Source: Haematobia irritans (Eukaryota; Arthropoda; Insecta; Diptera; Muscidae). From it: a stretch of DNA of 64,000 nucleotides. This document shows positions 1 through 58,690 of the stretch, piece after piece. Below the pieces are notes generated by a model. That model did no database searches and was not told the DNA's origin. It saw nothing but the letters and a program-made list of their open reading frames with translations. Numbering within the stretch: position 1 is the stretch's first letter; the number at the start of each line of letters is the position of its first letter. The position numbers and the translations under genes were made by a program. The stretch spans positions 146,629,526 to 146,693,525 of the forward strand of contig NC_134397.1 in NCBI RefSeq assembly GCF_050003625.1, given 5' to 3'.

Positions 1-512
1 GTAAATTGAATAAAAACTGGGGTTTCTATAAGCCCAAGAAGTAAAATCGGGAGATCGGTCTATATGGGGGCTATACCAAAACATGGACCGATACTCACCA
101 TTTTTGGCACACCTCTTTATGGTCATAAAATACCTCTAGATTTCAAATTTCAGGCAAATTGGATAAAAACTACGATTTCTATAAGCCCAAGACCCCAAAT
201 CGGGAGGTCGGTTTATATGGGGACTATATCAAAACCTGGACCGATATAGCCCATCTTCGAACTTGACCTGCCTGCAGACAAAAGACGAGCTTGCGCAAAA
301 TTTCAGCACGATTGCTTCATTATTGAAGACTGTAGCGTGATTACAACAGACAGACAGACAGACGGACAGACGGACATCGTTATATCGTCTTAGAATTTCT
401 CCCTGATCAAGAATATATATACTTTATATAGTCGGAAATCGATATTTCGATGTGTTACAAACGGAATGACAAACTTATTATACCCCCGTCACCATTCTAT
501 GGTGGTGGGTAT
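1..512 (+). repeat. Family A element (A1), 5' end outside window
   Basis: Member of the A family of the 153-bp superfamily, cut by the window start. About three 153-bp monomers carry the phrase TATATGGGGGCTATACCAAA and are followed by a GACAGACAGACGG microsatellite near 341-375. The conserved tail contains GATCAAGAATATATATACTT, then GTTACAAACGGAATGAC. It ends in the hairpin 479-512, with arms TATACCCCCGTCACCA and TGGTGGTGGGTAT, followed by A residues. The open frame at 64-249 is only a property of the stop-poor 51-codon monomer. Same family as 26975-27995 and 39395-40800. Confidence 0.85.
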
Positions 513-562
513 AAAAAAGTTAGTTATAAAAATGGAATAAAAGAACTTAAAATAAAGTTAAA
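513..562. repeat. Short spacer between A1 and B1, possibly repeat G
   Basis: AT-rich segment with GAATAAAAGAACTT and AAAATAAAG, similar to parts of repeat G at 42636-42787 and 51485-51640. The right flank of B1 (2387-2475) carries further repeat-G-like sequence, so B1 may have landed inside a G copy. Confidence 0.4.
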
Positions 563-2386
563 CAAGTAAGGAAAGTCTAAAGTCGGGCGGGACCGACTAT
601 ATTATACCCTACACCACTTTGTAGATCTAAATTTTCGATACCATACCACATCTGTCAGTTGTGTTGGGTGCTATATATATAAGGTTTGTCCCAAATACAT
701 ACATTTTAATATCTCTCGATCTGGACAGAATTTGATAGGCTTCTACAAATTCTATAGACTCAAAATTTAAGTCGGCTAATGCACTAGGGTGAAACAACTA
801 AATCGGAGTAAAAAATTGGCCTCTGTGGTCACATGAGTGTAAATCGGGCGAAAGCTATATATGGGAGCTATATCTAAATCTGAACCGATTTCAATCAAAT
901 TTGTCACACTTGACTATACTGCTAATTGTACTCCTAGTGAAAAATTTCAACCAAATTGGGCTAAAACTCTGGCTTCTAGGACCATATTAGTCCATATCGG
1001 GGGAAAGCTATATATGGGAGCTATATCTAAATCTGAACCGATTCAATCAAATTTGTCACACTTGACTATACTGCTAATTGTACTCCTAGTGCAAAATTTC
1101 AACCAAATTGGGCCAAAACTCTGGCTTCTAGGACCATATTAGTCCATATCGGGCGAAAGCTTTATATGGGAGCTATATCTAAATCCGAACCGATTTCAAT
1201 CAAATTTGACACACATGACTATACTACGAATTGTACTCCTAGTGCAAAATTTCAACCAAATTGGGCCAAAACTCTGGCTTCTAGGACCATATTAGTCCAT
1301 ATCGGGCGAAAGCTATATATGGGAGCTATATCTAAATCCGAACCGATTCATTCAAATTTGTCACACTTGACTATACTGCTAATTGTACTCCTAGTGCAAA
1401 ATTTCAACCAAATTGCGCCAAAACTCTGGCTTCTAGGACCATATTAGTCCATATCGGGCGAAAGCTATATATGGGAGCTATATCTAAATCCGAACCGATT
1501 TCAATCAAATTTGACACACATGACTATACTACGAATTGTACTCCTAGTGCAAAATTTCAACCAAATTGCGCCAAAACTCTGGCTTCTGGGGCCATATAAG
1601 TCCATGTCGGGCAAAAGATATATATGGAAGCTATATCTAAATCTGAACCGATTTCAATCAAATTTGACACACATGACTATACTACGAATTGTACTCCTAG
1701 TGCAAAATTTCAACCATATTGGGCCAAAACTCTGGCTTCTGGGGCCATATAAGTCCATATCGGACGAAAGATATATATGGAAGCTATATCTAAATCTGAA
1801 CCGATTTCAATCAAATTTGGCACACATGATTATATTACTAATTGTACTCCTTGTGCAAAATTTCAAGCTAATCGGGATAAAACTCTGGCTTCTGGATCCA
1901 TAGAAGTGTATATCGGGCGAAATATATATATGGGAGCTATATCTAAATCTGAACCAATTTCAATCAAATTTGGCACACATGACTATACTACTAACTTTTA
2001 TCCTAGTGCAAAATTTCAATTAGGCCAAAACTCTGGCTTCTGGGGCCATATAAGTCCATATCGGGCGAAAAATATATATGGGAGCTACATCTAAATCTGA
2101 ACCGATTTCTTCCAAAATCAATAGGGTTCTATTCTGACCCAAAAAAGGAACACGTGCCAAATTTGAAGGCGATTGGACTTATATTGCGAACTAGACTTTG
2201 ATCACAAAAATGTGTTCACAGACAGACGGACGGACAGACGGACAGAGGGACATGGTTATATCGACTTAGGGACCCACCCTGAGCATTATTGCCAAAGACA
2301 CCATATGTCCACCTCGTCTCCTTCTGGGTGTTACAAACATATGCACTAACTTATAATACCCTGTTCCACAGTGTGGCGCAGGGTAT
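563..2386 (+). repeat. Family B element (B1), full length with about eight 153-bp monomers
   Basis: Complete family B element. It begins CAAGTAAGGAAAG, then a palindrome AGTCGG/CCGACT near 581-598, then ATACCCTACACCAC at 604-617. A 153-bp tandem array runs from about 861 to 2100; monomer starts (ATGGGAGCTATATC) lie at about 861, 1014, 1166, 1319, 1471, 1624, 1777 and 1930, with a last partial copy at 2079. A CAGACGGACGG microsatellite follows at about 2220-2250. The tail ends in GTGGCGCAGGGTAT (2373-2386), the inverted counterpart of the 5' motif with 12 of 14 matches. Frames at 861-2094 reflect the period being divisible by three. No transposase is encoded. Confidence 0.9.
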
Positions 2387-3966
2387 AAAAAGTTAAAATA
2401 AAGAATATCTTTGGAAGGACGTTTTTGCAAGTGCTTTTAAAGTTGTGCTTTTAGAAGAACATTAGATTAAAAACAAAATCTTTTGAACTGGAAAACTTTC
2501 TATTCAGTTCCAAAGGTACGCAAGTTTTAGATTAGGCGAACTTTTGGCATTTTTGGTTTACCCCCTCTAATATACACGTCCCTGACAATATGTTCGCACA
2601 AACGCATCTATTTGAGTTTTCAAACATTTCGTAGACATATTTATGTTGATATTCTTGTTGAGTTTTGGTTTAGTTTGCTTAGGATATTGTTGTTTTGTTT
2701 TTCGTTTTATTTTCCACTGTGTGGAAGTGGTTCATTTTTTAATATTTCGTTGTGGCTGGTTTTAAGTATTTTTTGCTCCTTGTTGGATTTTTTTTGTTTT
2801 TTGTTCTTGTTATTATTAAACCATGAAACTCAAACCCCATTCGTTCTGCTCCACTCACGCATTGAGTTTAGACTAACGCATATGGTCTAGGGTCTATCAT
2901 TTTCATATGGACTCTGGAATGCAACCAATTTATTGGTGTGTAAGTCCGTCGTTCATCCATCAACCATCTAGTGAAGTCCAAACGTTCGTCTGTCCGTCCG
3001 TCCGGCAGTTCATTCTTCAATCAATCTATTTCCGACTAACAAAGACCACCACCATCACCACTACCACATATCCCACACTGCAAGTTAGAGTATGCGTTTC
3101 GTCAACATAGTGAACAGTAGCTCAAAGGTATAATTATGAACATGGAAACTATGGGTGAAATATGATTAAATGTAAAACTTCAATTCAGCAATCTATGGAC
3201 ACTGGTATTTAGAATTGAAAAGTATGTTGAGTTAATCCAAAAATCTTCTTTACGAAATGCTGGAATCTGGGAGAAGCTGAACTTTCAGCTGAAATCAAGC
3301 TAATTTGTTTCCACTCCTTTGTCCTTATCTTCATGCTATCTAACCCTAAAGTGAACCATTTTATAAATCTCATATTTCTCGCTTTCTATTTTTTTATCTG
3401 ATCCAGCATTTTGACCCACTGTATATCCTGTCAAGTGCATTGCTGAATAAATAATTTGTATATTTATTCATGCGTATGTTAACCAAAGGAAACCAACGCA
3501 TACACGCACTCAACTCTTTCAAACTTTTTGTGTGTGTGTGTTTTTTTTTTTCTTTTTTGCTATTTGTGCATTTATTTTTTGCAATTAAACGCATTTTTGT
3601 TTATAAAGCCATTGTTTCGAGATCTGTTGTTTATTCCTTTTTGGATAAATTAAACTTTTCGACTTTGTGAAGGAGCCTCTTGCACTCATTTCAAAAATAC
3701 AAAACATTAGTGCTGCTGGTATAAAAGATTTTCAAATCAGTATTTGCAACTGAAAACCAACGAAACGAGACGAAAAAACTATAAAGAGTCGATTGCGGTG
3801 GACTAACCCTACGGAAAATTGGTGCAAATTGCCACTGACGGACCCACCGCAGAACTGGTACCGGTGATCCAGTTTGTCGCAGTTTTTAAATAGTCATAAT
3901 TTACTGATTTCCATACTAGCTAGCTTTCTATAAAAATATTATTGGATCTAAACATTTAGTGAAGTA
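2387..3966. other. No gene recognised; AT-rich intronic or intergenic DNA
   Basis: Starts with about 80 bp resembling repeat G, then sequence without recognisable families. It contains a CGTCC microsatellite near 2990-3003, a TG/T tract at about 3530-3555 and A/T homopolymers. Short open frames at 2612-3110 and 3394-3670 are low-complexity, hydrophobic or His/Thr-rich and match no family I know. Confidence 0.5.
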
Positions 3967-4621
3967 CACTGAAAAAAAAATTGTCGTGTGGTCAAAGATT
4001 TCATGTCTTTAAAATACGAATACAAATTTTGCTTAGCATAGAAGACGCATTTCTCTAAAATAAAGTTATTTTCCTTGTCCAAAAGTCGATAAACTTTTCA
4101 ATGAAGTCATATTGTTCTTATAATTAAGTGATTTTACTTAAAAATGGGTATCTTAACATGAAAGAAAAAATTTATAGGCTAAGGTCAACTTGACTTTAAT
4201 AATTCTGAAAAATTCTTTAAATTTAATGAAATTGTCTTTAAATTTGTTGTCTTTTGCATCTTGACTACAAAGCAAAAAATCGTTCAAATATAGGCCATGT
4301 TTTTCAAAACTTTATTTTAAAGATGTTTTTTACTTCAAACATAGCATAATTTCTACTGGAAGTCGAGTCTTAATTTAGAAAATAAAGTTTCCGTTAACTC
4401 GTTTTTAAAGGACTTTGATAGCATATGAAGAAAAAAAGCTGAGAAAGCGAAAAATTAAAATTTTCTTCCTAGAAGCAAGTACACAAAACCTAAATTTAAA
4501 AGAGAATTGTGTCTTAAAAGTATCCTTACTTGTATTCTCCGCTTCTTTGGCTCGGAATCAATATCAAATTTTTTAAAGTAAAGACAAAATCTTTGGAACC
4601 GATTATGCTTTTTTTTCAGTG
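3967..4621 (+). mobile_element. MITE F, copy 1 (TA-flanked, CACTGAAAA ends)
   Basis: The ends are inverted: CACTGAAAAAAAA at 3967 and TTTTTTTTCAGTG ending at 4621. Both sides carry TA (3965-3966 and 4622-4623), as expected for a Tc1/mariner-type target duplication. There is no coding potential. A second copy lies inverted at 16050-16659, so this is a real repeat family and not chance. A piece of the same family appears near 6880-7045. Confidence 0.8.
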
Positions 4622-5089
4622 TAGAATTGCCAGAATGAACTATTGTTCAACATATTTCAAAAGTTGGATAATTTTTTGGATAACAAAATGAAACAGATTT
4701 CTAAGAGTTTGTTCGAGACTGGTTCACGAGGACCTGTCTATGGGGTGCTACTACTAAAATATCCGAGGACGTGTCCTTAGAAACGAGTCCAAGACATGTC
4801 CTAAAGTGTAAATTTACCCCGTCAATGACAAACCCATAAAGTGACCGGTCCCTTCTATACCTCTAGACCAGAATTAGGACTGGTCCATACACGCCAGGGA
4901 CTAGTCCTATACCGGTCCTGTTGTTGATCCATTTGCCGTAGGGATGCGTTACTTTATTTTGCCCTACACAGCAATTACTTGGATCCAAAGATTTTGACCT
5001 GCCCTTAAGGATTTTAGTATGCGAAATTTTTAAGTAAGCTATTGTAACGACCCTTCTCTTTCAAATACTATACCTTATGTGCGGGTGCT
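4622..5089. other. No gene recognised
   Basis: Moderately GC-balanced single-copy-looking sequence. GGACC/GGTCC motifs recur at 4715-4920 in phrases such as GACCTGTC, GGACTGGTCC and ACCGGTCC. No open frame or family was recognised. Confidence 0.4.
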
Positions 5090-5509
5090 ACCTATAATGC
5101 CGGCCTTGCTCAGGGCAATGGGGGTGTTCTTGCCATAAGGTATAGATTTCGGCCAGTTAACATAAATTAATAAATTTTAGGTAGCTCTTGTTAAAGGATT
5201 GCCATATTAAAACAAAAAAATGAAACAAAACAAAATTCACAGTGTAAAAGAAATGCCTACATTTTGGAAGAACTAATGGTGTAGTTTGTCCTTCCTCTTA
5301 TACCCTCCCATCCATGCTCGATGCGTTAAAACATCGGCCCACTGTGCGACTTAACGAATTATGGCTTCATTTTTGTGAAAATGGTACAAAAAAAAAAACC
5401 TAGCGAGTCATCTTTAATTAAATTTATTAATTTATGTTAACTGGCCGAAATCTATACCTTATGGCAAGAACACCCCCCATTGCCCTGAGCAAGGCCGGCA
5501 TTATAGGTG
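5090..5509. repeat. Foldback element with ~88-bp inverted arms
   Basis: The left arm, about 5090-5178, and the right arm, about 5420-5509, are nearly perfect reverse complements. They share the order CCTATAATGCCGGCC, TTGCTCAGGGCAATGG, TATAGATTTCGGCCAG and TAACATAAATTAATAAATTT. The only clear difference is a G-run of five against six. The unique loop is about 240 bp. There is no coding potential. It could be a foldback/MITE or a recent local inverted duplication. A transcript across it would form a long hairpin RNA. Confidence 0.85.
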
Positions 5510-9212: not shown

Positions 9213-9375
9213 CAGACAGACGGAGAGACGGACATGGCTAGATTGACTCAGGAGCTAGCACTGAGCAATATTGCCAAAGACACCATATATGGTATGTCTA
9301 TCTTGTCTCCTTCTGGGTGTTGCAAACATATGCACTAACTTATAATACCCTGTTCCATAATGTGGCGCAGGGTAT
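9213..9375 (+). repeat. Family B 3' tail only (B3)
   Basis: Holds CAGACAGACGGAGAGACGG, then the B tail with CTCCTTCTGGGTGTTGC and AACTTATAATACCCTG, ending GTGGCGCAGGGTAT. The B body and 5' end are missing; mariner sequence sits where they should be. Confidence 0.85.
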
Positions 9376-17683: not shown

Positions 17684-19223
17684 ATACCCTCCACCATAGG
17701 ATGGGGGTATATTAACTTTGTCATTCCGTTTGTAACACATCGAAATATTGCTCTAAGACCCCATAAAGTATATATATTCTGGGTCGTGGTGAAATTCTGA
17801 GTCGATCTGAGCATGTCCGTCCGTCTGTTGAAATCACGCTAACTTCCGAACGAAACAAGCTATCGACTTGACACTTGGCACAAGTAGTTGTTATTGATGT
17901 AGGTCAGATTGTATTGCAAATGGGCCATATCGCTCCACTTTTACGTATAGCCCCCATATAAACGGACCCCCAAATGTGGATTGTGATTGCTCTAAGAGAA
18001 GCAAATTTCATCCGATCCGACTGAAATTTGGTACATGGTGTTAGTATATGGTCTCTAACAAGCATGCAAAAATTGGTCCATATCGGTCCACTTTTACATA
18101 TAGTCCCCATATAAACGGACCGCCAAATTTGGCTTGCGATTGCTCTCAGAGAAGCAAATTTCATCCGATCCGGCTGAAATTTGGTACATGGTGTTAATAT
18201 ATGGTCACTAACAACCATGAAAAAATTGGTCTATATCGGTCTATAATTATATATAGCCCCCACCCGATCCGGCTGAAATTTGGTACATGATATTAGTATA
18301 TAGTCTCTAAGAACCATTCAAAAATTTGTCCATATCAGTCCATAATTATATATAGCCCCTATATAAACCGATCCCCAGATTTTAACTCCGGAGCCACGTG
18401 GACGAGCAAAATTCATCCGATCCGGTTGAAATTTGCAACGTGGTGTTAGTATATGGCCGCTAATAACCATGCCAAAATTGGTCCATATCGGTCTATATAT
18501 ATAGCCGATCATCAATCACACAAAAATTGGTCTATATCGGTTCATAATCATGCTTGCCACTCGAGGAAAAATAATCTAGCAAAATTTGTCGAAATTTTAT
18601 TCCTATAGAAAATTTTGTCAAATTTTATTTCTATAGAAAATTTTGTCAAATTTTATTTCTATAGAAAATTTTGGCAAAATTTTATTTCTGTAGAAAATTT
18701 TGGCAAAATTTTAATTCTATAGAGAATATTGTCAAAATTTTAAATCTTTTGAAAATTTAGTACAAATTTTATTTCTACAGAAAATTTGGTCAAAATTTTA
18801 TTTCTATAGGAAATTTTGTCAAAATTTTATTTCTATAGAAAATTTTGTCAAAATTTTATTTCTATAGAAAATTTTGCCAAAATGTTATTTCTATAGAAAA
18901 TTTTTTCAAAATTTTATTTCTATAGAAAATTTTGTCAAAATTTTATTTCTATAGAAAATTTTGTCAAAATTTTATTGATAAAGAAAATTTTGGGAAAATT
19001 TTATTTTTACAGAAAATTTTGTCAAACTGAACTATATATGTACTTAATCGGCCTTTTTTGAGAAGACGGTGGCACGAAGTTCTTTTACCTTGCCATCGGC
19101 AAGTGTTACCGCAACCCAATTAATTCGATTGTGGATGACAGTCTGTAGTAGAAGCTTCTACGCAATCCATGGTGGAGGGTACATAAGATTCGGCATGGCC
19201 GAACTTACGGTCGTATATACTTG
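17684..19223 (-). repeat. Family C element (C3), full length with 29-bp array
   Basis: On the minus strand it begins CAAGTATATACGACCGTAAG at 19223, with the 5' inverted motif at about 19170. The 29-bp array spans about 18575-19030 and 153-bp monomers about 17840-18540. GGACGGACATGCTCAG and the tail follow, ending ATGGTGGAGGGTAT at 17684, then A residues. Frames at 17596-18515 are monomer artefacts. Confidence 0.9.
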
Positions 19224-22897: not shown

Positions 22898-23980
22898 CAA
22901 GTAAATACGGCCGTAAGTTCGGCCAGGCCGAAGCTTATGTACCCTCCACCATGAATTGCGTAGAAACTTCTTCTAAATACTGCCATCCACAATCGGGTTG
23001 CGGTAACGCTTGCCGATGGCAAGGTATCTTAATACCTCTTAACACCGTTTTCTAAATTGTATGGGCTTACACGTGGTATATACTAAATTAACAAAATTTT
23101 CTATAGAAATACAATTTTGACAAAATTTTCTTTAGGAATAAAATTTTGACAAAATTTTCTATAGAAATAAAAATTTGGTAGATTATTTTTTGCTCAAGTG
23201 GCAACCATGATTATAAACCGATACGGACCAATTTTTGTGTGATTGTGGATCGGCTATATATTACTATAGACCGATATGGACCAATTTTGGTATGGTAGTT
23301 AGTGGCCATATACTAAAACCACGTTCCAAATGTGAACCGGATCCGATGAATTTTGCTTCTCTTAGAGGCTCCGCAAGCCAAATCTGGGGATCGGTTTATA
23401 TGGGGGCTATATATAATTATGAACCGATGTGGACCAATTTTTGCATGGTTGTTAGAAACCATATACCAACATCATGTACCAAATTTCAGACGAATCGGAT
23501 GAAAAATGCTTCTCTTTGAGGCTCCGCAAACCAAATCGGGGGATCGGTTTATATGGGGGCTATATATAATTATGAAGTGATGTGGACCAATTTTTGCATG
23601 GTTGTTAGAAACCGTATACCAACATCATGTACCAAATTTCAGACGAATCGGATGAAATATGCTTCTCTTAAAGGCTCCGCAAACCAAATCTGAGGGTTTG
23701 TTTATATGGGGGCTATACGTGAAAGTGGTCCGATATGGCCCATTTGCAATACCGTCCGACCTACATCATTAACAACTACTTGTGCCAAGTTTCAAGTCGA
23801 TAGCTTGTTTCATTCGGAAGTTTGCATGATCTCTACACACAGACGGACGGACATGCTTAGATCGACTCAGAAATTCACCACGACCCAGAATATACTTAAT
23901 GGGGTCTTAGAACAATATTTCCATGTGTTACAAACGGAATGACAAAGTTAATATACTCCCCATCCTATGGTGGAGGGTAT
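22898..23980 (+). repeat. Family C element (C6), complete
   Basis: A model C element. It starts CAAGTAAATACGGCCGTAAG, followed by the palindrome TTCGGCCAGGCCGAA. The 5' subterminal motif TACCCTCCACCAT is at 22940-22952. A short reversed 29-bp array runs about 23090-23175, then about four 153-bp monomers, AGACGGACGGACATGC, and the tail. The inverted ATGGTGGAGGGTA is at 23967-23979. Runs of A flank both sides. Confidence 0.9.
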
Positions 23981-24114
23981 AAAAAATGGAAGAAAAAAAT
24001 GTGAAAAAAGGATCCAGATTTACCTGTCTTATGTCGGCTGTCTTACACGATAACACATGATAAGTCCCCGGTCTAACAAAGGAAAACACATTTTTTTGTC
24101 AAAATTCGTTTGTA

Positions 24115-25154
24115 TTATTCAACATAGTTCCCTTCAAGAGCAATACAACGATTATAACGACCTTCCAATTTTTTGATACCATTTTGGTAGTACTCCTTCG
24201 GTTTTGCCTCAAAATAGGCCTCAGTTTCGGCGATCACCTCTTCTTTGCAGCCAAATTTTTTCCCTGCGAGCATCCTTTTGAGGTCTGAGAACAAAAAAAA
24301 GTCGATGGGGCCAGATCTGGAGAATAAGGTGGGTGGGGAAGCAATTCGAAGCCCAATTTATGAATTTTTGCCATCGTTCTCAATGACTTGTGGCACGGTG
24401 CGTTGTCTTGGTGGAACAACACTTTTTTCTTCTTCATATTAGGCCGTTTTGCCGCGATTTCGACCTTCAAACGCTCCAATAACACCATATAATAGTCACT
24501 GTTGATGGTTTTTTCCTTCTCAAGCTAATCGATAAACATTATTCCATGCGCATCCCAAAAAACAGAGGCCATTACTTTGCCAGCGGACTTTTGAGTCTTT
24601 CCACGCTTCGGACACGGTTCACCGGTCGCTGTCCACTCAGCCGACTGTCGATTGGACTCAGGAGTGTAGTGATGGAGCCATGTTTCATCCATTGTCACAT
24701 ATCGACGGAAAAACTCGGGTGTAGTACGAGTTAACAGCTGCAAACACCGCTCAGAATCATCAACACGTTGTTGTTTTTGGTCAAATGTGAGCTCGCGCGG
24801 CACCTATTTTGCACAGAGCTTCTGCATATCCAAATATTGATGAATGATATGACCAACAAGTTCCTTCGATATCTTTAAGGCCTCTGCTATCTCGATCAAC
24901 TTCATTTTACGGCCATTCAAAATCATTTTGTGGAATTTTTTGATGTTTTCGTCGGTAACCACCTCTTTCGGGCGTCCGCTGCGTTCACCGTCCTCCGTGC
25001 TAATTTCACCACGCTTGACTTTTGCATACCAATCAATTATTGTTGATTTCCCTGGGGCAGAGTCCGGAAACTCATTATCAAGCCAAGTTTTTGCTTCCAC
25101 CGTATTTTTTCCCTTCAGAAAGCAGTATTTTATCAAAACACGAAATTCCTTTTT
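24115..25154 (-). pseudogene. Mariner 2 transposase, broken
   Basis: Nearly the whole irritans-type transposase from about codon 4 on. N-terminal helix-turn-helix (FRVLIKYCFLKGKNTVEAKT), then KLIEIAEALKISKE, first catalytic Asp in TMDETWLHHY, second in HQDNAPCHKS, and the YSPDLAPS region before the third. Defects: TGG to TAG before VPRELT near 24803; a TAG in place of Tyr after IFID near 24524; a one-base deletion exactly at the third catalytic Asp (LAPSTFF), shifting the frame; and the start codon (26861-26863) separated by the C insertion. The stop corresponds to 24115-24117. Confidence 0.9.
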
Positions 25155-26855
25155 ATACCCTCCACCATAGGATGGGGGTATATTAACTTTGTCATTCCGT
25201 TTGTAACACATGGAAATATTGCTCTAAGATCCCATAAAGTGTATATATTCTGGGTCGTGGTGAAATTCTGAGTCGATCTGAGCATGTCCGTCCGTCCGTC
25301 CGTCTGTTGAAATCACGGTAACTTCCGAATGAAACAAGCTATCGACTTGAAACTTGGCACAAGTAGTTGTTATTGATGTAGGTCGGATGCTATTGCAAAT
25401 GGGCCATATCGGTCCACTTTTACGTATAGCCCCCATATAAACCGATCCCCAGATTTGGCTTGCGAGGCCTCTAAGAGAAGCAAATTTTATCCGATCCGGC
25501 TGAAATTTGGTACATGGTGTAAGTATATGGTCTCTAACAACCATGCAAAAATTGGTCCACATCGGTCCATAATTATATATAGCCCCCTTATAAACCGATC
25601 CCGCGATTTGGCTTGCGAGGCCTCTAAGAGAAGCAAATTTCATCCGATCCGGATGAAATTTGGTACATGGTGTTAGTATATGGTCTCTAGCAACCATGCA
25701 AAAATTGGTCCACATCGGTCCATAATTATATATAGCCCCCATATAAACCGATCCCCCGATTTGGCTTGCGAAGCCTCTAAGAGAAGAAAATTTCATCCGA
25801 TCCGGCTGAAATTTGGTACATGGTGTTAGTATATGGTCTCTAACAACCATGCAAGAATTGGTCCACATCGGTCCATAATTATATATAGCCCCCATATAAA
25901 CCGATCACCAGATTTGACCTCCGGAGCCTCTTGGAAGACCAAAATTCATCTGATTCAGTTGAAATTTGGTACGTGGTGTTAATATATGGCCTCAAACTGC
26001 CATGCAAAAATTGGTCGGTATCGGTCCATAATTATATATAGGCCCCATATAAACCAATACCCAGATTTTACCTTCAGAGCCCCTTGGAAGAGCAAAATTC
26101 TTCCTATTCGGTTGAAATTTGGTAAATGATGTTAGTATATGGTATCCAACAACCATGCAGGAATTGGTTCCTATCAGCTTATAATTATATATAGCTCCCA
26201 TATAAACCGATCCCCAGATTTGATATCCGGTGCCTTTTGGAGAAGCAAAATTCATCCGATTTGCTTGAAATTTGGTACGTGGTGATCGTATATGATATTT
26301 AACAACCATGCCAAAAGTGGTCCATATCAGTCCATAATCATATATAGCCCCATATAAACCGATCCCGAGATTTGGTTTTGGAGCCTCTTGGAGGAGCAAA
26401 TTTCATCCGAGTGAGTTGAAATTTGGTACATTGTGCTAGTATATGGTCGTTAACAACCATGCGTAACTAGGTCCATATCGGTCTATAGTTATATATATAT
26501 CCCTCATATAAATCCATTTCCAATCACACAAAAATTGGTCCATATCAATTTCAAAATTGTATACAGCCCCCATATAAGCGACCCCCATATTTCAATTCTG
26601 GCTCTCTACGTACCGTGCAAAAAGTCCATATCGATTCGTAATTATTTGTAAACTTAACTATACATAACTTTTTTGTCTAATATATACCACGTATGGACCA
26701 ACCCACAATTTAGAAAACGATGTTAAGAAGTTTTAAGATACCACAACCCAAGTAATTCGATTGTGGATATTAGTCTTTCATAGAAGTTTCTACGCAATCC
26801 ATGGTGGAGGGTACATAAGATTCGGCCTGGCCGAACTTACGGCCGTATATACTTG
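25155..26855 (-). repeat. Family C element (C7) inserted in mariner start codon region
   Basis: Complete C element without a 29-bp array. On the minus strand the left junction is ATGGAAAA then CAAGTATATACGG; the right junction is GGAGGGTAT then AAAAAGGAATTTCG. The unoccupied site at 55891-55910 reads ATGG, seven A, GGAATTTC. The insertion therefore lies within an A-run and the filled site has two extra A. Monomers carry nearly intact 51-codon frames (25224-25895) that are stop-poor on both strands; I do not regard them as genes. Confidence 0.93.
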
Positions 26856-26974
26856 TTTTCCATTTTTTTCACAATAACAAAAGTTGCTTCACAAAAGACG
26901 CTCTATCTCACAAACTAATTGACTTAGAGACGTCAAATTTTGACACGAATGATTTGAAGGTTGTTACTATATAA

Positions 26975-27995
26975 CAAGTATATACAAATCGGCTAGAAAA
27001 CATAGTCTCTAGACGCCCAAGAAGTAAAAATCGAGAGATCAGTTTATATGAGGGTTATACCAAAAAATGGACCGATATACCTAAATTTCGGCACACTTAT
27101 TTGTGGTCTAAAAATACCTCTAGATTTCGAATTTCAGGCAAATCGGGTAATAAATACAGTTTATAGAAGCTCAAGAAATTCAGGCAAAGCGGATTGTAAA
27201 TATAGTTTCTAGAAGCCCAAGAAGCAAAATCGGGAGATCGGTCTATATGGGGGCTATACCAAAAAATTGACCAATGGGCACCATTTTCGGCACACCTTTT
27301 TATGGTCCTCAAATACCTCTAGATTTCCAATTTCAGGCAAATTGGATAAAAACTACGGTTTTTATAGGCCCAAGACTCCAAATCGGAAGATTGGTTTATA
27401 TGGGGGCTATATCACAACATGGACCGATACGGACCATATTCGACTCACCTCTTTATGGTCCCAAAATACCTCTAGATTTTCAATTTCATACAAATCGGAT
27501 AGAAAATACTGTTTCTAGACGCGCAAGAAGCAAAATCGGGAGATCGGTCTATATGGGGGCTATACCAAAACGTGGACCGATACGGACCATTTTCAACACA
27601 CCTCTTTATGGTCCAAAAATACCCCTGGATTTCCAATTTCAGGCAAATCTGATAAAAACTACGGTTTTTATAGGCCCAAGACCCCAAATCGGGAGGTCGG
27701 TTTATATGGGGACTATATCAAAACTTGGACCGATATAGCCCATCTTCGAACTTGACCTGCCTGCAAACAAAAAACTAATCTGTGCCAAATTTGGGGACGA
27801 TAGCGCCATTATTGAAGGCTGTAGCGTGATTACAACAGACAGACAGACGGACAGACGGACATGCTTATATCGTCTTAGAATTTCTCCCTGATCAAGAATA
27901 TATATACTTTATATAGTCGGAAATCGATTTCGATGTGTTACAAACGGAATGACAAACTTATTATACCCCCGTAACCATTGTATGGTGGTGGGTAC
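26975..27995 (+). repeat. Family A element (A2) inserted in mariner leader
   Basis: Junctions are ACTATATAA then CAAGTATATACAAATCG on the left, and GGTGGTGGGTAC then AAAAATAAAATGCATT on the right. The empty site in mariner 3 (minus strand of about 55770-55795) reads ACTATAT, five A, TAAT. The filled site totals seven A, again plus two. The interior has about four 153-bp monomers, CAGACGGACAGACGG and the A tail. Frames at 27267-27738 are monomer artefacts. Confidence 0.92.
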
Positions 27996-28065
27996 AAAAA
28001 TAAAATGCATTCAATACTAGCGACGCCATCTATGTGTCAGACCTGGGACTTATCAGCCAACCTGT

Positions 28066-39394: not shown

Positions 39395-40800
39395 CAAGTA
39401 TATACAGCACTAAGTTCGACCTGGCCGAATCTTAAATACCCACCACCATGAACCAAATATTAGGGTTTCCTTTGAAATTTCAGAGGGTTTGAGGACAGAT
39501 CAAGCAGAGCAGTTCAACCAGTACACTTCACGAAGATACATTTAAAGGTTTTACCTATGAAGACTATATCAGATTCTGGAGGAAGAGGAATCATTAACAT
39601 CTCTTGTAAGGGTGCAAGAAAATTATAAAATAACGTCTTGATTTGAAATCTTAAATCTGTAGAAGTGAAATCTGGAAATTTTACATTTAGTTTCAATCAA
39701 TTTTCATTTTCAGTGCGCCTTCTACACCCTCAAGAAGTGAAGTCGGTCTATATGGAGGCATTACCAAATGGACCGATAAAAACTTAATCCGATACACGTT
39801 TTCGTGAGCCCAAAATACCAGAATATTTACAATTTCAGGCAAATCAGATAAAAACTACGGTTTCTAGAAACCCAAGGAGTTAAATCGGGAGGTCGTTCTA
39901 TATGGGGACCATACCAAAACATGGACAGATACTCACAATTTTTGGCACACGTATTTGTGGTCCTACAATACCTCTAGATTTCCAATTTCAGGTAAATTGA
40001 ATAAAAACTGCGGTTTCTATAAGCCCAAGAAGTAAAATCGGGAGATCGGTCTATATGGGGGCTATACCAAAATATGGACCGATACTCACCATTTTCGGCA
40101 TACCTGTTGATGGTCCTCAAGTACCTCTAGATGTTCAATTTCAGACAAATTGGATAAAACCTACGTTTTCTATAAGCCCAGACCCCAAATCGGGAGGTCG
40201 GTTTATATGGGGGCTATACCAAAACATGGACCGATGCTCAACATTTTTGGCACACCTCTTTACGGTTCTAAAGTACCTCTCGATATCCAATTTCAGGTAA
40301 ATTGGATAAAAACTGCGTTTTCTATATGCCCAAGAAGTAAAATCGGGAGATCGGTCTATATGGGGGCTATACCAAAACATGGACCGATACTCACCATTTT
40401 TGGCACACCTCGTTATGGTCATAAAATACCTCTAGATTTCAAATTTCAGGCAAATTGGATAAAAACTTCGATTTCTATAAGCCCAAGACCCCAAATCGGG
40501 ATGTCGGTTTATATGGGGACTATATCAAAACCTGGACCGATATAGCCCATCTTCGAACTTGATCTGCCTGCAGACAAAAGACGAGTTTGTGCAAAATTTC
40601 AGCACGATTGCTTCATTATTGAAGACTGTAGCGTGATTACAACAGACAGACAGACAGACGGACATCCTTATATCGTCTTAGAATTTCTCCCTGATCAAGA
40701 ATATATATACTTTATATAGTCGGAAATCGATATTTCGACGTATTACAAACGGAATTACAAACTTATTATACCCCCGTCACCATTCTATGGTGGTGGGTAT
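39395..40800 (+). repeat. Family A element (A3), full length
   Basis: Starts CAAGTATATACAGCACTAAG, with palindrome TTCGACC/GGCCGAA and the 5' motif ATACCCACCACCAT. About five 153-bp monomers, CAGACAGACAGACGG, and the A tail ending ATGGTGGTGGGTAT at 40800. Seven A then separate it from the CAGGTATATACGG start of C10. The two elements thus sit head-to-tail in one A-run. Confidence 0.9.
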
Positions 40801-40807
40801 AAAAAAA

Positions 40808-42635
40808 CAGGTATATACGGCCGTAAGTTCGGCTATGCCGAATCTTATGTACCCTCCACCTTGGATTGCGTAGACACTTCTACGAAAGACTGTCATAATC
40901 GAAGTACTTGGGTTGTGGTAATACTTACCGATTGCAAAGTATCTTAAAACTTCTTAACATCGTTTTCTCAATTGTGAGTTAGTCCATACGTGGTATATAT
41001 TAGACAAAAAAGGTATGTATAGGTAAGTCTACAAATAATTACGAATCGATATGGACTTTTGCACGGTACTTAGAGAGCCAGACTTGAAATATGGGGTTCG
41101 CTTATATGGTGGGGCTATATACAATTATGAACTTGATATGGACCACTTGTTGTGTGATTGGGGATCGATTTATCTGAGGGCTATATATAACTAAAGACCA
41201 ATATGGACCTAGTCAGGCATGATTGTTAACGGCAATATACTAGCACAATGTGCCAAATTTCGACTGACTCGGATGAAATTTGTTCCTCCAAGAGGCCCCA
41301 AAACCAAATCTCGGACTCGGTTTATATGGGGGCTATATATAATTATGGACTGATATGGACCAATACCTGCATGGTTGTTAGAGACCATTTACTAACACCA
41401 CGTACTAAATTTCAATCAGATCGGATGAATTTTGCTCTTCCACAAGGCTAAGGAGTTCAAATCTGGGGATCGGTTTATATGGGGGCTATATATAATTATG
41501 GACCGATGTAGGCCAATTTTTGCATGGTTGTTAGAGACCATATCTGTACCAAATTTCATTCGGATCGGATGAAATTTACTTCTCTTAAAGGCTCCGCAAG
41601 CCAAATCTGGGGATCGGTTTATATGGGGGCTATATATGATTATGGACCGATGTGGACCAATTTTTGCAGGATTGTTAGAGACCATATACTAACACCATGT
41701 ATCAAATTTCAGCCGAATAGGATGAAATTTATTTCTCTTAGAGGATCCGCAAGCCAAATCGGGGGATTGGTTTATATGGGGGCTATATATAATTATGGAC
41801 CGATGTGGACCAATTTTTGCAGGATTGTTAGAGACCATATACTAACACCATGTATCAAATTTCAGCCGGATCGGATGAAATTTGTTTCTCTTAGAGGATC
41901 CGCTAGCCAAATCGGGGGATCGGTTTATATGGGGGCTATATATAATTATGGACCGATGTGGACCAATTTTTGCAGGATTGTTAGAGACCATATACTAACA
42001 CCATGTATCAAATTTCAGCCGAATAGGATGAAATTTGTTTCTCTTAGAGGATCCGCAAGCCAAATCGGGGGATTGGTTTATATGGGGGCTATATATAATT
42101 ATGGACCGATGTGGACCAATTTTTGCAGGATTGTTAGAGACCATATACTAACACCATGTATCAAATTTCAGCCGGATCGGATGAAATTTGTTTCTCTTAG
42201 AGGATCCGCTAGCCAAATCGGGGGATCGGTTTATATGGGGGCTATATATAATTATGGACCGATGTGGACCAATTTTTGCATAGTTGTTAAAGGCCATAAG
42301 CTGACACCATGTACCAAATTTCAGCCGAATCGGATGAAATTTGCTTCCCCACAAGCCAAATTTGGGAGTCCGTTTATATGGGGGCTATACCTAAAAGTGG
42401 ACCGATATGGTCCATTTGCAAAACCATCCAACCTACATGAATAGCAACTACTTGTGCCAAGTTTCTAGTCGATAGCTTGTTTCGTTCGGAAGTTAGCGTG
42501 CTCAGATCGACTCAGAATTTCACCACGACTCAGAATATATATATATATACTTTATGGGGTCTTAGAGCAATATTTCGATGTGTTACAGACGGAATGACAA
42601 AGTTAATATACCCCCCATCCTATGGTGGAGGGTAT
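40808..42635 (+). repeat. Family C element (C10) with homogenised 153-bp array
   Basis: Full-length C element without 29-bp repeats. Monomers at about 41620-42240 are nearly identical, alternating two variants (…IGGLVY and …IGGSVY versions), which gives one open frame of 306 codons at 41524-42444. The alternation shows duplication of a two-monomer (306-bp) unit. I read the frame as a by-product of a 51-codon monomer, not a gene. It ends ATGGTGGAGGGTAT, A residues, then repeat G. Confidence 0.9.
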
Positions 42636-48851: not shown

Positions 48852-49956
48852 CGAGTATATACGGCCGTAAGTTCGGCCAGGCCGAAGCTTATGTACCCTC
48901 CACCATGGATTGCGTAGAAACTTCTACTGAAGACTGTCATAAACAATCGTATTACTTGGGTTGCGGTAACATTTGCCGATGGCAAGGTATCTTAACACTT
49001 CCTAACACCGTCTTCTAAATTGTAAGGTAGTCCATATGTGGTATATATTAAACTAAAAAAAAATTCTATAGAAATAAAATTTTGACAAAATTTTCTATAG
49101 AAATAAAATTTTGACAAAATTTTCTATAGAAATAATGACATGACATGAAATGACAAAATAAAATGTTGACAAAATTTTCTATAGAAATAAAATTTTGACA
49201 AAATTTTCTATAGACATCAAATTTTGACAAAATTTTCTATAGAAATCAAATTGACAAAATTGTCTATAGGAATAAAATTTTAACAAAATTTTCTATAGAA
49301 ATAAAATGTTGGTAGATTATTTTTGGCTCGAGTGACAACCATGATTATGAACCGATATGGGCCAATTTTTCTGTGATTGGGGATCGGCTATATATAACTA
49401 TAGACCGATATGGACCAATTTTGGTATGGTTTTTAGCGGTCATATACAAAAACCATGTACCAAATTTCATCCGGATCGGATGAAATTTGCTTCTCTTTGA
49501 GGCTCCGCGAGCCAAATCTGGGGATCGGTTTATATGGGGGCTATATATAACTATAAACCGATGTGGACCAATTTTTGCATGGTTGTTAGAGATCATATAC
49601 TAACACCATGTACCAAATTTCGGCCGGATCGGATGAAATTTGCTTCTCTTAGAGCAATCGCAAGCCAAATTTGGGGGTCCGTTTATATGGGGGCTATACG
49701 TAAAAGTGGACCGATATGGCCCATATGCAATACCATCCGACCTACATCAATAACAACTACTTGTGCCAAGTCGATAGCTTGTTTCGTTCGGAAGTTAGCG
49801 TGATTTCAACAGACGGACGGGCGGACATGCTCAGATCGACTCAGAATTTCACCACGACCCAGAATATATATACTTTATGGGGTCTTAGAGCAATATTTCA
49901 ATGTGTTACAAACGGAATGACAAAGTTAATATACCCCCATCCTATGGTGGAGGGTA
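48852..49956 (+). repeat. Family C element (C12) with 29-bp array
   Basis: Begins CGAGTATATACGGCCGTAAG, then TTCGGCCAGGCCGAA. Reversed 29-bp array at about 49060-49312, junction GGTAGATTATTTTTGGCTCG, monomers to about 49800, microsatellite and tail. It ends GGTGGAGGGTA and continues without A residues straight into C13. Confidence 0.9.
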
Positions 49957-51233
49957 AGTTCGGCTAGGCCGAAGCTCATGTACCCTCCACCATGGATTGC
50001 GTAGAAACTTGTACTGAAGACTGTCATAAACAATCGTAATACTTGGGTTGCGGTAACATTTGTCGATGGCAAGGTATCTTAACACTTCCTAACACCGTCT
50101 TCTAAATTGCAAGGTAGTCATAAGTGGTATATATTAAACTAAAAAAAAATTCTGTAGAAAAAAATTTTGACAAAACTTTCTATAGAAATAAAATGTTCAC
50201 AAAATTTTCTATAGAAATAAAATTTTGACAAAATTTTCTATAGAAATCAAAGTTGAAAAAATTGTCTATAGGAATAAAATTTTAACAAAATTTTCTATAG
50301 AAATAAAATTTTGGTAGATTATTTTTGGCTCGAGTGACAACCATGTGAACCGATATGGGCCAATTTTTGTGTGATTGGGGATCGGCTATATATAACTATA
50401 GACCGATATGGACCAATTTTAGCATGGTTATGTTATTAGCGGCCATATACTAACACCACGTTCCAAATTTCAACCGGATCGGATGAATTTTGCTTCTCCA
50501 AGAGGCTCCGGAGATCAAATCTGGGGAACCGTTATATATGGTGGCTATATATAAATATGGACCAATTTTTGCATGGTTGTGAGAGACCATATACTAACAC
50601 CACGTATCAAATTTCAACCGGATCGGATGAAGTTTGCTTCTCCAAGAGGCTCGGAGATCAAATCTGGAGAGCGGTTTATATGGGGGCTATATATAAATAT
50701 AGACCGATATGGACCAATTTTTGCATGGTTGTGAGAGACCATATACTAACACCACGTATCACATTTCAACCGAATCGGATGAATTTTGCTCCTCCAAGAG
50801 GTTCCTGAGATCAAATCTGGGGATCGGTTTATATGGGGGGTGTATATAATTATGGACCGATATGGACCAATTTTTGCATGGTTGCTAGAGACTATATACT
50901 TACACCATGTACCAAATTTCAGCCAGATCGGATGAAATTGGCTTCTCTTTGAATCTCCGCAAGCCAAATATGGGGATCGGTTTATATGGGGGCTATATAT
51001 AATAATGGACCGATGTGGACCAATTTTTGTATGGTTGTTAGAGACCATATGCCAAAAGCATGTACCAAATTTTAGCCCTATCGGATGCAATTTGCTCGTC
51101 CCTGAGGCTCCGCAAGCCAAATCTGGGAATCGGTTTATTTGTGGGCTATATATATTTCAATGGTTGTTAGAGACCATATACAAACACCATGTACCAAATT
51201 TCAGTCTGATCGGATGCACTGAATTTTCATCAC
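49957..51233 (+). repeat. Family C element (C13), fused to C12
   Basis: Starts at AGTTCGGCTAGGCCGAAG, missing the first ~18 bp of the C 5' end. The junction shares GTA with both partners. Reversed 29-bp array at about 50150-50315, then six or more monomers. The 3' tail is absent; it breaks off near CGGATGCACTGAATTTTC. Confidence 0.88.
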
Positions 51234-55711: not shown

Positions 55712-56769
55712 ACAAGTTGGCTGATAAGTCCCCGGTCTGACACATAGATGGCGTCGCTGGTATTAAATGCATATTATTTTTATATAGTACCAACCTTCAA
55801 ATTATTCGTGTCAAAATTTGACGTCTGTTAGTCGATTAGTTTGTGAGATAGAGCGTCTTTTGTGAAGCAACTTTTGTTATTGTGAAAAAAAATGGAAAAA
55901 AAGGAATTTCGTGTTTTAATAAAATACTGTTTTCTGAAGGGAAAAAATACGGACTCTGCCCCAGGGAAATCAACAATAATTGATTTGTATGCAAAATTCA
56001 AGCGTGGTGAAATGAGCACGGAGGACAGTGAACACAGTGGACGCCTGAAAGAGGTGGTTACCGACGAAAACATAAAAAAAATCCACAAAATTATTTTGAA
56101 TGACCGTAAAATGAAGTTGATCGAGATAGCAGAGGCCTTAAAGATATCAAAGGAACGTGTTGGTCATATCATTCATCAATATTTGGATATGTGGAAGCTC
56201 TGTGCAAAATGGGTGCCGCGCGAGCTCACATTTGACCAAAAACAACAACGTGTTGATGATTCTGAGCGGTGTTTGCAGCTGTTAACTCGTAATACACCCG
56301 AGTTTTTCCGTCGATATGTGACAATGGATGAAACATGGCTCCATCACTACACTCCTGGGTCCAATCGACAGTCGACTGAGTGGACAGCATCCGGTGAACC
56401 GTCTCCGAAGCGTGGAAAGACTCAAAAGTCCGCTGCAAAGTAATGGCCTCTGTTTTTGGGATGCGCATGGAATAATTTTTATCGATTATCTTGAGAAGGG
56501 AAAAACCATCAACAGTGACTATTATATGGCGTTATTGGAGCGTTATCGAAATCGCGGCAAAACGGCCCCATATGAAGAAGAAAAAGGTGTTGTTCCACCA
56601 AGACAAAGGCAAAACCGAAGGAGTACTACCAAAATGGTATCAAAAAATTGGAAGGTCGTTATAATCGTTTTATCGCTCTTGAAGGGAACTATGTTGAATA
56701 ATAAAAACGAATTTTGACAAAACAAATGTGTTTTTCTTTGTTAGACCGGGGACTTATCAGCCAACCTGT
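55712..56769 (+). mobile_element. Himar1-like mariner (mariner 3), internally deleted
   Basis: TIRs ACAAGTTGGCTGATAAGTCC at 55712 and GGACTTATCAGCCAACCTGT ending 56769, both flanked by TA (55710-55711, 56770-56771). 1058 bp, about 230 bp short of the family length. It lacks the insertions seen in mariner 2 and so supplies both empty sites. Confidence 0.95.
55892..56701 (+). pseudogene. Mariner 3 transposase, broken
   Basis: The start codon and first codons are intact (MEKKEFRVLIKYCFLKGKNT). An in-frame deletion then removes about 11 codons of the first helix-turn-helix. The second helix-turn-helix, WVPRELT linker and TMDETW with the first catalytic Asp are present. A one-base deletion near 56435 (GCTGCAAAG) brings in a stop; others lie near 56455 and 56545. 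A deletion of roughly 170 bp begins just after the HQD of the second catalytic motif and removes the third Asp. The C-terminal GRYNR..EGNY region ends at the natural stop, 56699-56701. Confidence 0.92.
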
Positions 56770-57368: not shown

Positions 57369-58690
57369 ATACCCTCCACCATAGGATGGGGGTATATTAA
57401 CTTTGTCATTCCGTTTGTAACACATCGAAATATTGCTCTAAGACCCCACAAAGTATGTATATTCTGGGTCGTGGTGAAATTCTGAGTCGATCTGAGCATG
57501 TCCGTTCGTCCGTCCGTCCGTCTGTTGAAATCACGCTAACTTCCGAACGAAACAAGCTATCGACTTGAAACTTGGCACAAGTAGTTGTTATTGATGTAGG
57601 TCGGATGGTATTGCAAATGGGCCATATCAGTCCAATTTTACGTATAGCCCCTATATAAACGGACGCCCAAATTTGGCTTGCAGACCCTCTAAGAGAAGCA
57701 AATTTCATTCGATCCGGCTGAAATTTGGTGTTAGTATATGGTCTTTAACAACCATGCAAAAATTGGTCCACATCGGTCAATAATTATATATATAGCCCCC
57801 ATATACACGGATCCCCAGATTTGGCTTGCGGAGCCTCTAAGAGAAGAAAATTGCATCCGGTCCAGCTGTAATTTGGTACACGGTGTTAGTATATGGTGTC
57901 CAACAACGATGCAAAAATTGGTCCACATCGGTCCATAATTATATATAGCCCCCATATAAACAGATCCCCCGATTTGGCTTGCGAGGCCTCTAAGAGAAGC
58001 AAATTTCATCCGATCCAGCTGAAATTTGGTACATGGTGTTAGTATATGGTCTCTAATAACCATGCGAAAATTGGTCCACATCGGTCCATCATTATATATA
58101 GCCCCCATGTAAACCAATCACGAGATTTGACCTCCGGAGCCTCTTGGAAGACCAAAATTCATCTAATTCAGTTGAAATTTGGTACGTGGTGTTAATGTAT
58201 GGCCTCAAACACCCACGCAAAAATTGGTCGAAATCGGTCCACAATTATATATAGCCCCCTAATAAACCGATCCCCAATTTTGACCTCCGGAGCCCCTTAG
58301 AAGGGCAAAATTCACCCGATTCGGTTGAAATGTGGTACGTGATGTTAGTATATGGTATCCAACAACCATGCAGGAATTGGTTCATATCAGTCCATAATTA
58401 TATATAACCCCCATATAAACCGATCCCCAGATTTGACCTCCGGTGCCTTTTGGAGAAGCAAAATTCATCCGATCTGGTTGAAATGTGGTACGTGGTGGTA
58501 GTATATGATATTTAAAAACCATGCCAAAAGTGGTCCATATCACTCCATAATCATATATAGTCCCCAATATAAACCGATCCCGAGATTTGGTTTTGGAGCC
58601 TCTTGGTACGTTTAGAAGAAGTTTCTACGCAATCCATGGTGGAGGGTACATAAGCTTCGGCCTGGCCGAACTTACGGCCGTATATACTTG
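57369..58690 (-). repeat. Family C element (C17), complete ends, no 29-bp array
   Basis: Minus-strand element from cttg at 58687-58690 to the hairpin at 57369, with seven or so monomers. A deletion joins a monomer (TTGGAGCCTCTTGGTACG) directly to the 5' segment GAAGAAGTTTCTACGCAATC near 58605. GGACGGACGGACGAACGG microsatellite at about 57500-57525. Confidence 0.88.

Follow-up and report, generated by a model that had tools for sequence, protein, structure and literature searches.

Two high-copy repeats of the horn fly Haematobia irritans, here called A and C, are non-autonomous Helentrons, that is, HINEs or rolling-circle elements of the DINE-1/mini-me type. Both occur in a 64,000-nucleotide stretch of contig NC_134397.1 (the window, taken at its full length), where one Himar1-type mariner, mariner 2, carries a copy of each and another, mariner 3, is empty at both sites; the coordinates and bases given for these features in an initial annotation were confirmed (Table 1). 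Overall, we consider that A and C are mobilised by an autonomous Helentron and insert precisely into T tracts with a gain of two T's and no target duplication, one T belonging to each end of the element, and we put the probability of this reading at about 0.8.

Filled and empty insertion sites

Elements are written throughout in the orientation TACCC...CTTG, whereby the A-runs of the initial annotation become T-runs. When mariner 2 without its inserts was aligned to mariner 3, both junctions could be read base by base. At the ATG site, which holds the C element, mariner 2 has T5[A TACCC...CTTG]T4 where mariner 3 has T7; at the leader site, which holds the A element, it has T5[G TACCC...CTTG]T2 where mariner 3 has T5. 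The two extra T's are the sole change at either junction, exactly the gain of two A's that had been described, and the ends proposed at the same time (CAAG... and ...GGGTAT, or GGTAC) are likewise supported. As an empty reference mariner 3 is serviceable, if imperfect: stretches of about 33 and 193 bases that are present in mariner 2 are missing from it. Among empty mariner strings at the ATG site, T7 was found 6 times and T6 5 times, the other strings shown being mutated or unrelated, and T7 was taken as ancestral because it preserves the transposase frame.

To the pair of mariners in the window can be added junctions from the whole genome (1,173,491,510 bases in 181 contigs), in which 43 3' junctions and 62 5' junctions at the ATG site fitted the expected patterns. 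When junctions up to 12 kb apart were matched up by coordinate, 21 pairs resulted, in which the left and right T's sum to 9 in 16 cases, to 10 in 4 and to 11 in 1, corresponding to gains of two, three and four over T7. The register slides from pair to pair, with 5+4 in 12 pairs, 6+3 in 3, 7+2 in 1, 5+5 in 2, 6+4 in 2 and 8+3 in 1, and the counts on the two sides compensate, such that 5+4, 6+3 and 7+2, which together make up the 16 pairs, each sum to 9. The left count in the 62 5' junctions was 5 in 41, 6 in 12 and 7 in 2, with 7 junctions falling outside these classes. This preference for 5, which is the earliest position with four T's before the cut, is strong when compared with a uniform distribution (p of about 2e-10). 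We infer that the pairs with gains of three or four T's reflect run-length slippage.

The gain is exactly two T's at five other sites: the mariner leader, the mariner 3' untranslated region (filled 5+2 versus empty T5, the latter found in 19 of 23 matched strings), and three loci recovered by searching with the joined flanks of 14 elements, 40 candidates being scored in each search. At the first of these loci (L067) the filled site reads 2+3 and the empty one GTTTA, a run of three, in all 4 empties read, gap-free, and the strongest 41 matches cover the joined flank entirely or almost so. At the second (L077) a filled 5+2 corresponds to T5G, again in 4 of 4 empties read, and at the third (L096) a filled 5+3 corresponds to T6 in the single nearby empty copy that was read. 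For two further elements (L069 and L075) the searches returned unreadable partial matches of 74-77%, and for 9 of the 14 the listed matches included no empties, though such sites may still exist; L079 was dropped, its two paralogues in the window disagreeing (T6 versus TTTGT). Slippage as the whole cause of the gain was rejected, since the gain is also present at the GTTTA and TTTTTG sites. Neither long target duplications nor deletions occur in any readable filled/empty pair, although the gain is variable in 5 of the 21 pairs at the 7-T site. The proposal that A and C are true mobile elements that insert precisely is supported.

The accessible text of Thomas et al. 2014 (PMC4067079) describes no target modification, and T numbers that are variable with an unclear distribution. 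It also contains the proposal that the number of T's at the ends varies freely, with a nuclease cutting anywhere in the T run beside the donor, in which case there would be no fixed gain. The left and right counts do differ among copies, and the 5 pairs above +2 would fit such a scheme, but the compensation to 9 in 16 of 21 pairs and the exact gain at five other sites make it highly improbable.

The filled ATG sites could also all trace back to a single mobile mariner, or a handful, carrying the insert along, in which case they would not be independent. All of them lie at one site, and an intact-ended mariner could in principle carry an insert; moreover, one region (C4:119547458-119553074) has four A-element junctions in mariner sequence about 1.9 kb apart, two of them with TTCTTA, and looks like a duplicated, tandem array of a filled mariner. 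Against this, at the level of junctions and spans, the 62 5' junctions comprise 45 of C and 17 of A, registers differ, and the shortest span in the 21 pairs is 961 bp and the longest 10,475 bp; descent from a few mobile filled mariners is quite improbable. Because two families, several registers and such different spans are involved, insertions of C and A into mariners are probably mostly independent as well as numerous. The earlier suggestion that these elements were active after the mariner invasion is supported, but it is incomplete: mariner 3 itself was inserted into the 3' end of a C element, some 10 bases in, and C was therefore active before some mariners arrived. Mutual nesting is evidence that the mariner and the C and A families had overlapping periods of activity.

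The host mariners, whose transposase we take to be that of Himar1, were found at 4,235 candidate places in a first look at the genome, 40 of which were scored. The mariner protein matched only Mos1 and SETMAR relatives in the PDB, a piece of it had no match in Pfam, and a plasmid search gave a single 62% match of no use for the analysis. The right inverted repeat of mariner 3 equals the Himar1 repeat, as printed in the accessible text of PMC8616859, at 29 of 29 bases, and the 5' inverted repeat of mariner 2 does so at 28 of 29. In mariner 2 the outer 3' inverted repeat (24048-24080) is missing some bases, while its counterpart in mariner 3 is intact.

Anatomy of the elements and an autonomous relative

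The repeats are not chance occurrences, because a 20-mer from the C 3' end is found 32,200 times in the genome and a 32-mer from its 5' end 13,693 times as exact matches, compared with 0 for the reversed control of each. Full copies contain subterminal inverted repeats (subTIRs), an inner repeat of the 5' subTIR, a GTCC block, 153-bp units and, ahead of ...ACTTG, a 3' hairpin. The 13-bp subTIRs are exact both in C (TACCCTCCACCAT / ATGGTGGAGGGTA) and in the full A copy (TACCCACCACCAT / ATGGTGGTGGGTA), and C carries a GTCC-type microsatellite and GTCCGTCCGTCTG-type blocks along with its 153-bp tandem units. The hairpin that follows the 3' subTIR of the C element in mariner 2 recurs in other copies.

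The best explanation for the mobility of A and C, judged from sequence, is an autonomous Helentron that would supply a Rep nuclease, a PIF1 helicase and an endonuclease of the apurinic/apyrimidinic (APE) type. A search of the genome for the Helitron_like_N family gave 69 matches, 4 of which lie in open frames of 1,596 to 2,221 amino acids, and one autonomous Helentron was examined in full (contig C107, C107:48600-61000, minus strand). Its open frame of 2,145 amino acids combines DUF6570, Helitron_like_N (PF14214), PIF1 (PF05970) and a C-terminal Exo_endo_phos domain (PF03372), with the last three all above cut-off in this single frame, and its helicase part matches Helraiser (7lcc, E 1.9e-10). 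It bears the signature FYWR-IEFQHRGSPHVH, which agrees with the (F/Y)(w/l/y/k)R motif and with the S in (V/I)ExQxRG(S)(P)HxH that the accessible text of PMC4067079 gives for Helentrons. Its termini are common with those of C: the 5' ends are 97% identical over 150 bp, and the 3' end has ATGGTGGAGGGTA, a hairpin and ...ACTTG as in C. In isolation the hairpins of this copy and of A fold at -7.2 and -3.7 kcal/mol, with z-scores of only -3.1 and -0.8 (for C, see Table 1).

The 5' region of the C107 copy is duplicated, the two versions lying 1,318 bases apart (C107:59001-61000) and each starting with TTTTTATACCC. A second Helentron (C3:212304600-212306999) has an open frame of 2,221 amino acids, a different hairpin (AGTCGGCCCCGCCCGACT) and ...TTACTGG before the T's; the Pfam score of its endonuclease domain, 22.2, is just below the cut-off of 24.5.

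Several arrangements of element ends in the window are worth recording. The A element at 26975-27994 in mariner 2 retains just TGTATATACTTG of its 3' end, and its junction is nonetheless as precise as the others; either the hairpin was lost after insertion or it is dispensable. At 40800-40808 only T7 separates a C element from an A element placed head to tail with it, and T18 follows the A element. At 49932-49973 a C 5' end runs straight into a truncated C 3' end at GAACTTACCC, as though the ends had recombined through a short word common to both. A similarly built element end, whose subTIR (TTTTTATACCCTGCGCCACA..GTGGAACAGGGTA) is nearly palindromic, is present at 2357-2385 and 9346-9374 and probably represents a third HINE family. 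A literature search of partial coverage returned no title on these HINE or Helentron elements in Haematobia.

Table 1. Mariners, HINEs and insertion sites in the window.
Feature	Position	Strand	Remarks
Mariner 2	24048..28065	-	Native Himar1-type mariner with both inserts; aligned to mariner 3
Mariner 3	55712..56769	+	Neither site filled; interrupts a C element 3' end between CAAcTATATA and CGGCC
Empty C (ATG) site, 7 A	55896..55902	+	In mariner 3
Empty A (leader) site, 5 T	55777..55781	+	In mariner 3; T5 in 21 of 22 matched mariner copies
C element, HINE, 1.7 kb	25154..26856	+	Given with one T per end; TACCC from 25156, CTTG to 26855
3' hairpin of C element	26821..26835	+	Motif TTCGGCCTGGCCGAA; fold -7.1 kcal/mol, z just -1.2 versus shuffles
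A element, HINE, 1.0 kb, in mariner leader	26974..27996	-	Without 3' subTIR and hairpin, compared with full A copy 40799-39395
Full A element	39395..40799	-	3' subTIR ATGGTGGTGGGTA, hairpin TTCGGCCAGGTCGAA
Full C element	40808..42634	-	Followed by T7, then A element
Full C element	57370..58690	+	
Full C element	17685..19223	+	
Full C element, adjoining mariner 2	22898..23979	-	

Source of the two T's and mode of insertion

Preferences around the insertion point were tabulated for the earliest 100 5' flanks and the earliest 100 3' flanks, taken in order along contig C1; these are not a random sample and include a few apparent local duplicates. On the element strand, the left pentamer was TTTTT in 75, TTATT in 9, TTTGT in 5, TTGTT in 3 and something else in 8, and the base preceding it was T in only 28 of 100. 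The right dinucleotide was TT in 92, TG in 3, TA in 2, GT in 2 and CC in 1, the last belonging to the recombinant. Targets had initially been described as A-runs, and in the sense of an A/T-run this holds; a simple A-run, however, does not describe the left flanks with TTATT or TTGTT (12 of 100) or TTTGT (5 of 100).

The tabulated flanks also bear on which T's are target and which are element. All 24 bases other than T at -4, -3 and +2 are purines, A or G (one recombinant row dropped), whereas T>C makes up 31 of the 63 T changes inside elements, a contrast with p of about 9e-8. Because the flanking changes are purine-only while T>C is common within elements, -4, -3 and +2 appear to be target. 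At -2 and +1, in contrast, 3 of 100 copies deviate at each position, close to the element's own T rate of 2.6%, and this near-background deviation suggests an element whose two ends each include one T. The excess of non-T over the element rate is weak at -3 (p 0.048) and at +2 (p 0.048, or 0.12 without the recombinant row). For several Drosophila species the subTIR is written TATACCC in the accessible text of PMC2374699.

The initial annotation had left open whether the additional A's arise from an AA duplication or belong to the element. A 2-bp TT target-site duplication, like that of a miniature inverted-repeat transposable element (MITE) with ends ATACCC and CTTG, predicts a gain of exactly two T's, accords with T being present at -3, -2, +1 and +2 in 94 to 97 of the 100 listed copies, and is compatible with the D. 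yakuba data in the accessible text of Yang and Barbash 2008 (PMC2374699). A duplication should, however, leave the same dinucleotide on both sides. We therefore considered the elements with a dinucleotide other than TT on one side and both ends read (n=11), leaving out L099 and L100 (no 3' end within 2 kb), L107 (no 5' end) and the recombinant copy at 49956 in the window. Four have GT on the left and TT on the right (L003, L091, L098, L101) and one has AT on the left and TT on the right (L089); on the other side, five have TG or TA on the right and TT on the left (L083, L102-L105) and one has GT on the right and TT on the left (L106). A matching pair across the element was found in 0 of these 11 atypical elements, and a MITE with a TT duplication was rejected on that count. 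To be reconciled with duplication, each would need a later mutation, but every changed base at -3 and +2 is a purine. We therefore regard a TT duplication as improbable, and the interpretation that is best supported, although not proven, is that there is no target duplication and that the two T's are carried by the element.

Several observations weigh against insertion of this kind, with one T per end and a fixed gain. Three or four T's, rather than two, were gained in 5 of the 21 pairs at the 7-T site, and empty T6 strings (5) nearly equal T7 strings (6) in number, with no filled pair summing to 8; if T6 was the target, the gain would become +3. The right flank of the empty copy at L096 matches over only about 17 bases. 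In the 11 atypical elements one flank may have been altered by mutation or conversion, and the sequence searched contained no usable empty copies for their flanks. The G at +1 in L106 is not predicted by a boundary with one T per end, and such a boundary is only mildly favoured over two T's at one end. Finally, A is only 80% identical to the C107 copy over about 165 bp, so its putative tie to the autonomous copy is one of resemblance only.

With element-borne T's, the element would be 5'-TATACCC...CTTGT-3', inserting at TTTT^T with a purine tolerated in the third or fourth place. The endonuclease domain would select and nick the T-run, and Rep would transfer a single strand starting at the donor's own TTTT^T motif. 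As a tentative extension, which we regard as possible but doubtful, integration may be a hybrid process: an APE-type endonuclease derived from a non-long-terminal-repeat retrotransposon would count from the 5' edge of the T-run and cut TTTT^T as the endonucleases of long interspersed elements do, while the HUH Rep would cut the donor at TTTT^T and ligate a single strand with one T per end. If this were true, target choice and donor-end definition would be a single motif, which would explain both the fixed gain of two and the preference for the first usable T.

Relation to known rolling-circle elements

Canonical Helitrons have the ends 5'-TC...CTRR-3'. Like those of the Helraiser type, the horn-fly system combines a Rep with a PIF1-type helicase; unlike them, it has a C-terminal endonuclease, C and the C107 copy have the ends TACCC...CTTG(T), and the target is T-rich, not A^T, the accessible text of PMC4067079 placing canonical insertion between A and T. 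A canonical Helitron identity for A and C was rejected, as both their ends and their insertion into T tracts differ.

A closer likeness is to HINEs, DINE-1 (INE-1) and Helentrons as these appear in the accessible text of PMC4067079, with which A and C share subTIRs, a 3' hairpin, a T-rich target with at least two T's on each side and high copy number, as well as an endonuclease-bearing Rep/helicase partner with common termini. What differs from that account is the near-constant gain of two T's, the sliding register and the placement of the T's on the element. Among the 12 Drosophila species treated by Yang and Barbash 2008 (PMC2374699, again in its accessible text), 8 of 10 D. yakuba sites fit WTTTT, and ten sites could not separate a TT duplication from element-borne T's. 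DINE-1 as described there has a 13-bp subTIR (TATACCC.../ATACCC...), a GTCY microsatellite, central repeats, a 3' stem-loop and TT insertion, as do the horn-fly elements, and its copy numbers of 334 to 5,424 compare with the 13,693 exact 5' 32-mers found here. In a calyptrate fly, Calliphora vicina, the accessible description of Helitron2_Cv and Helitron3_Cv (PMC3630058) is of DINE-1-like elements, which are reported to be common in Muscomorpha and of which two copies lie within a DD37E element; by that description, which includes no target-site analysis, they are like A and C both in type and in their nested copies.

Few fly repeats are as abundant as DINE-1-like elements, and in two of these papers insertion into T-runs stood in the way of settling exact ends and duplication. 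With so many exact 5' ends and numerous mariner host copies, the question becomes one that can be counted, and the outcome is a firmer boundary for annotation and a directly assayable target motif for the Helentron endonuclease. That HINE/DINE-1-type elements exist in flies, calyptrates included, is already known (PMC3630058). Added here are T counts from 21 pairs at a single site, which compensate between the two sides, together with a direct argument against the TT duplication that was left open in PMC2374699 and called unclear in PMC4067079.

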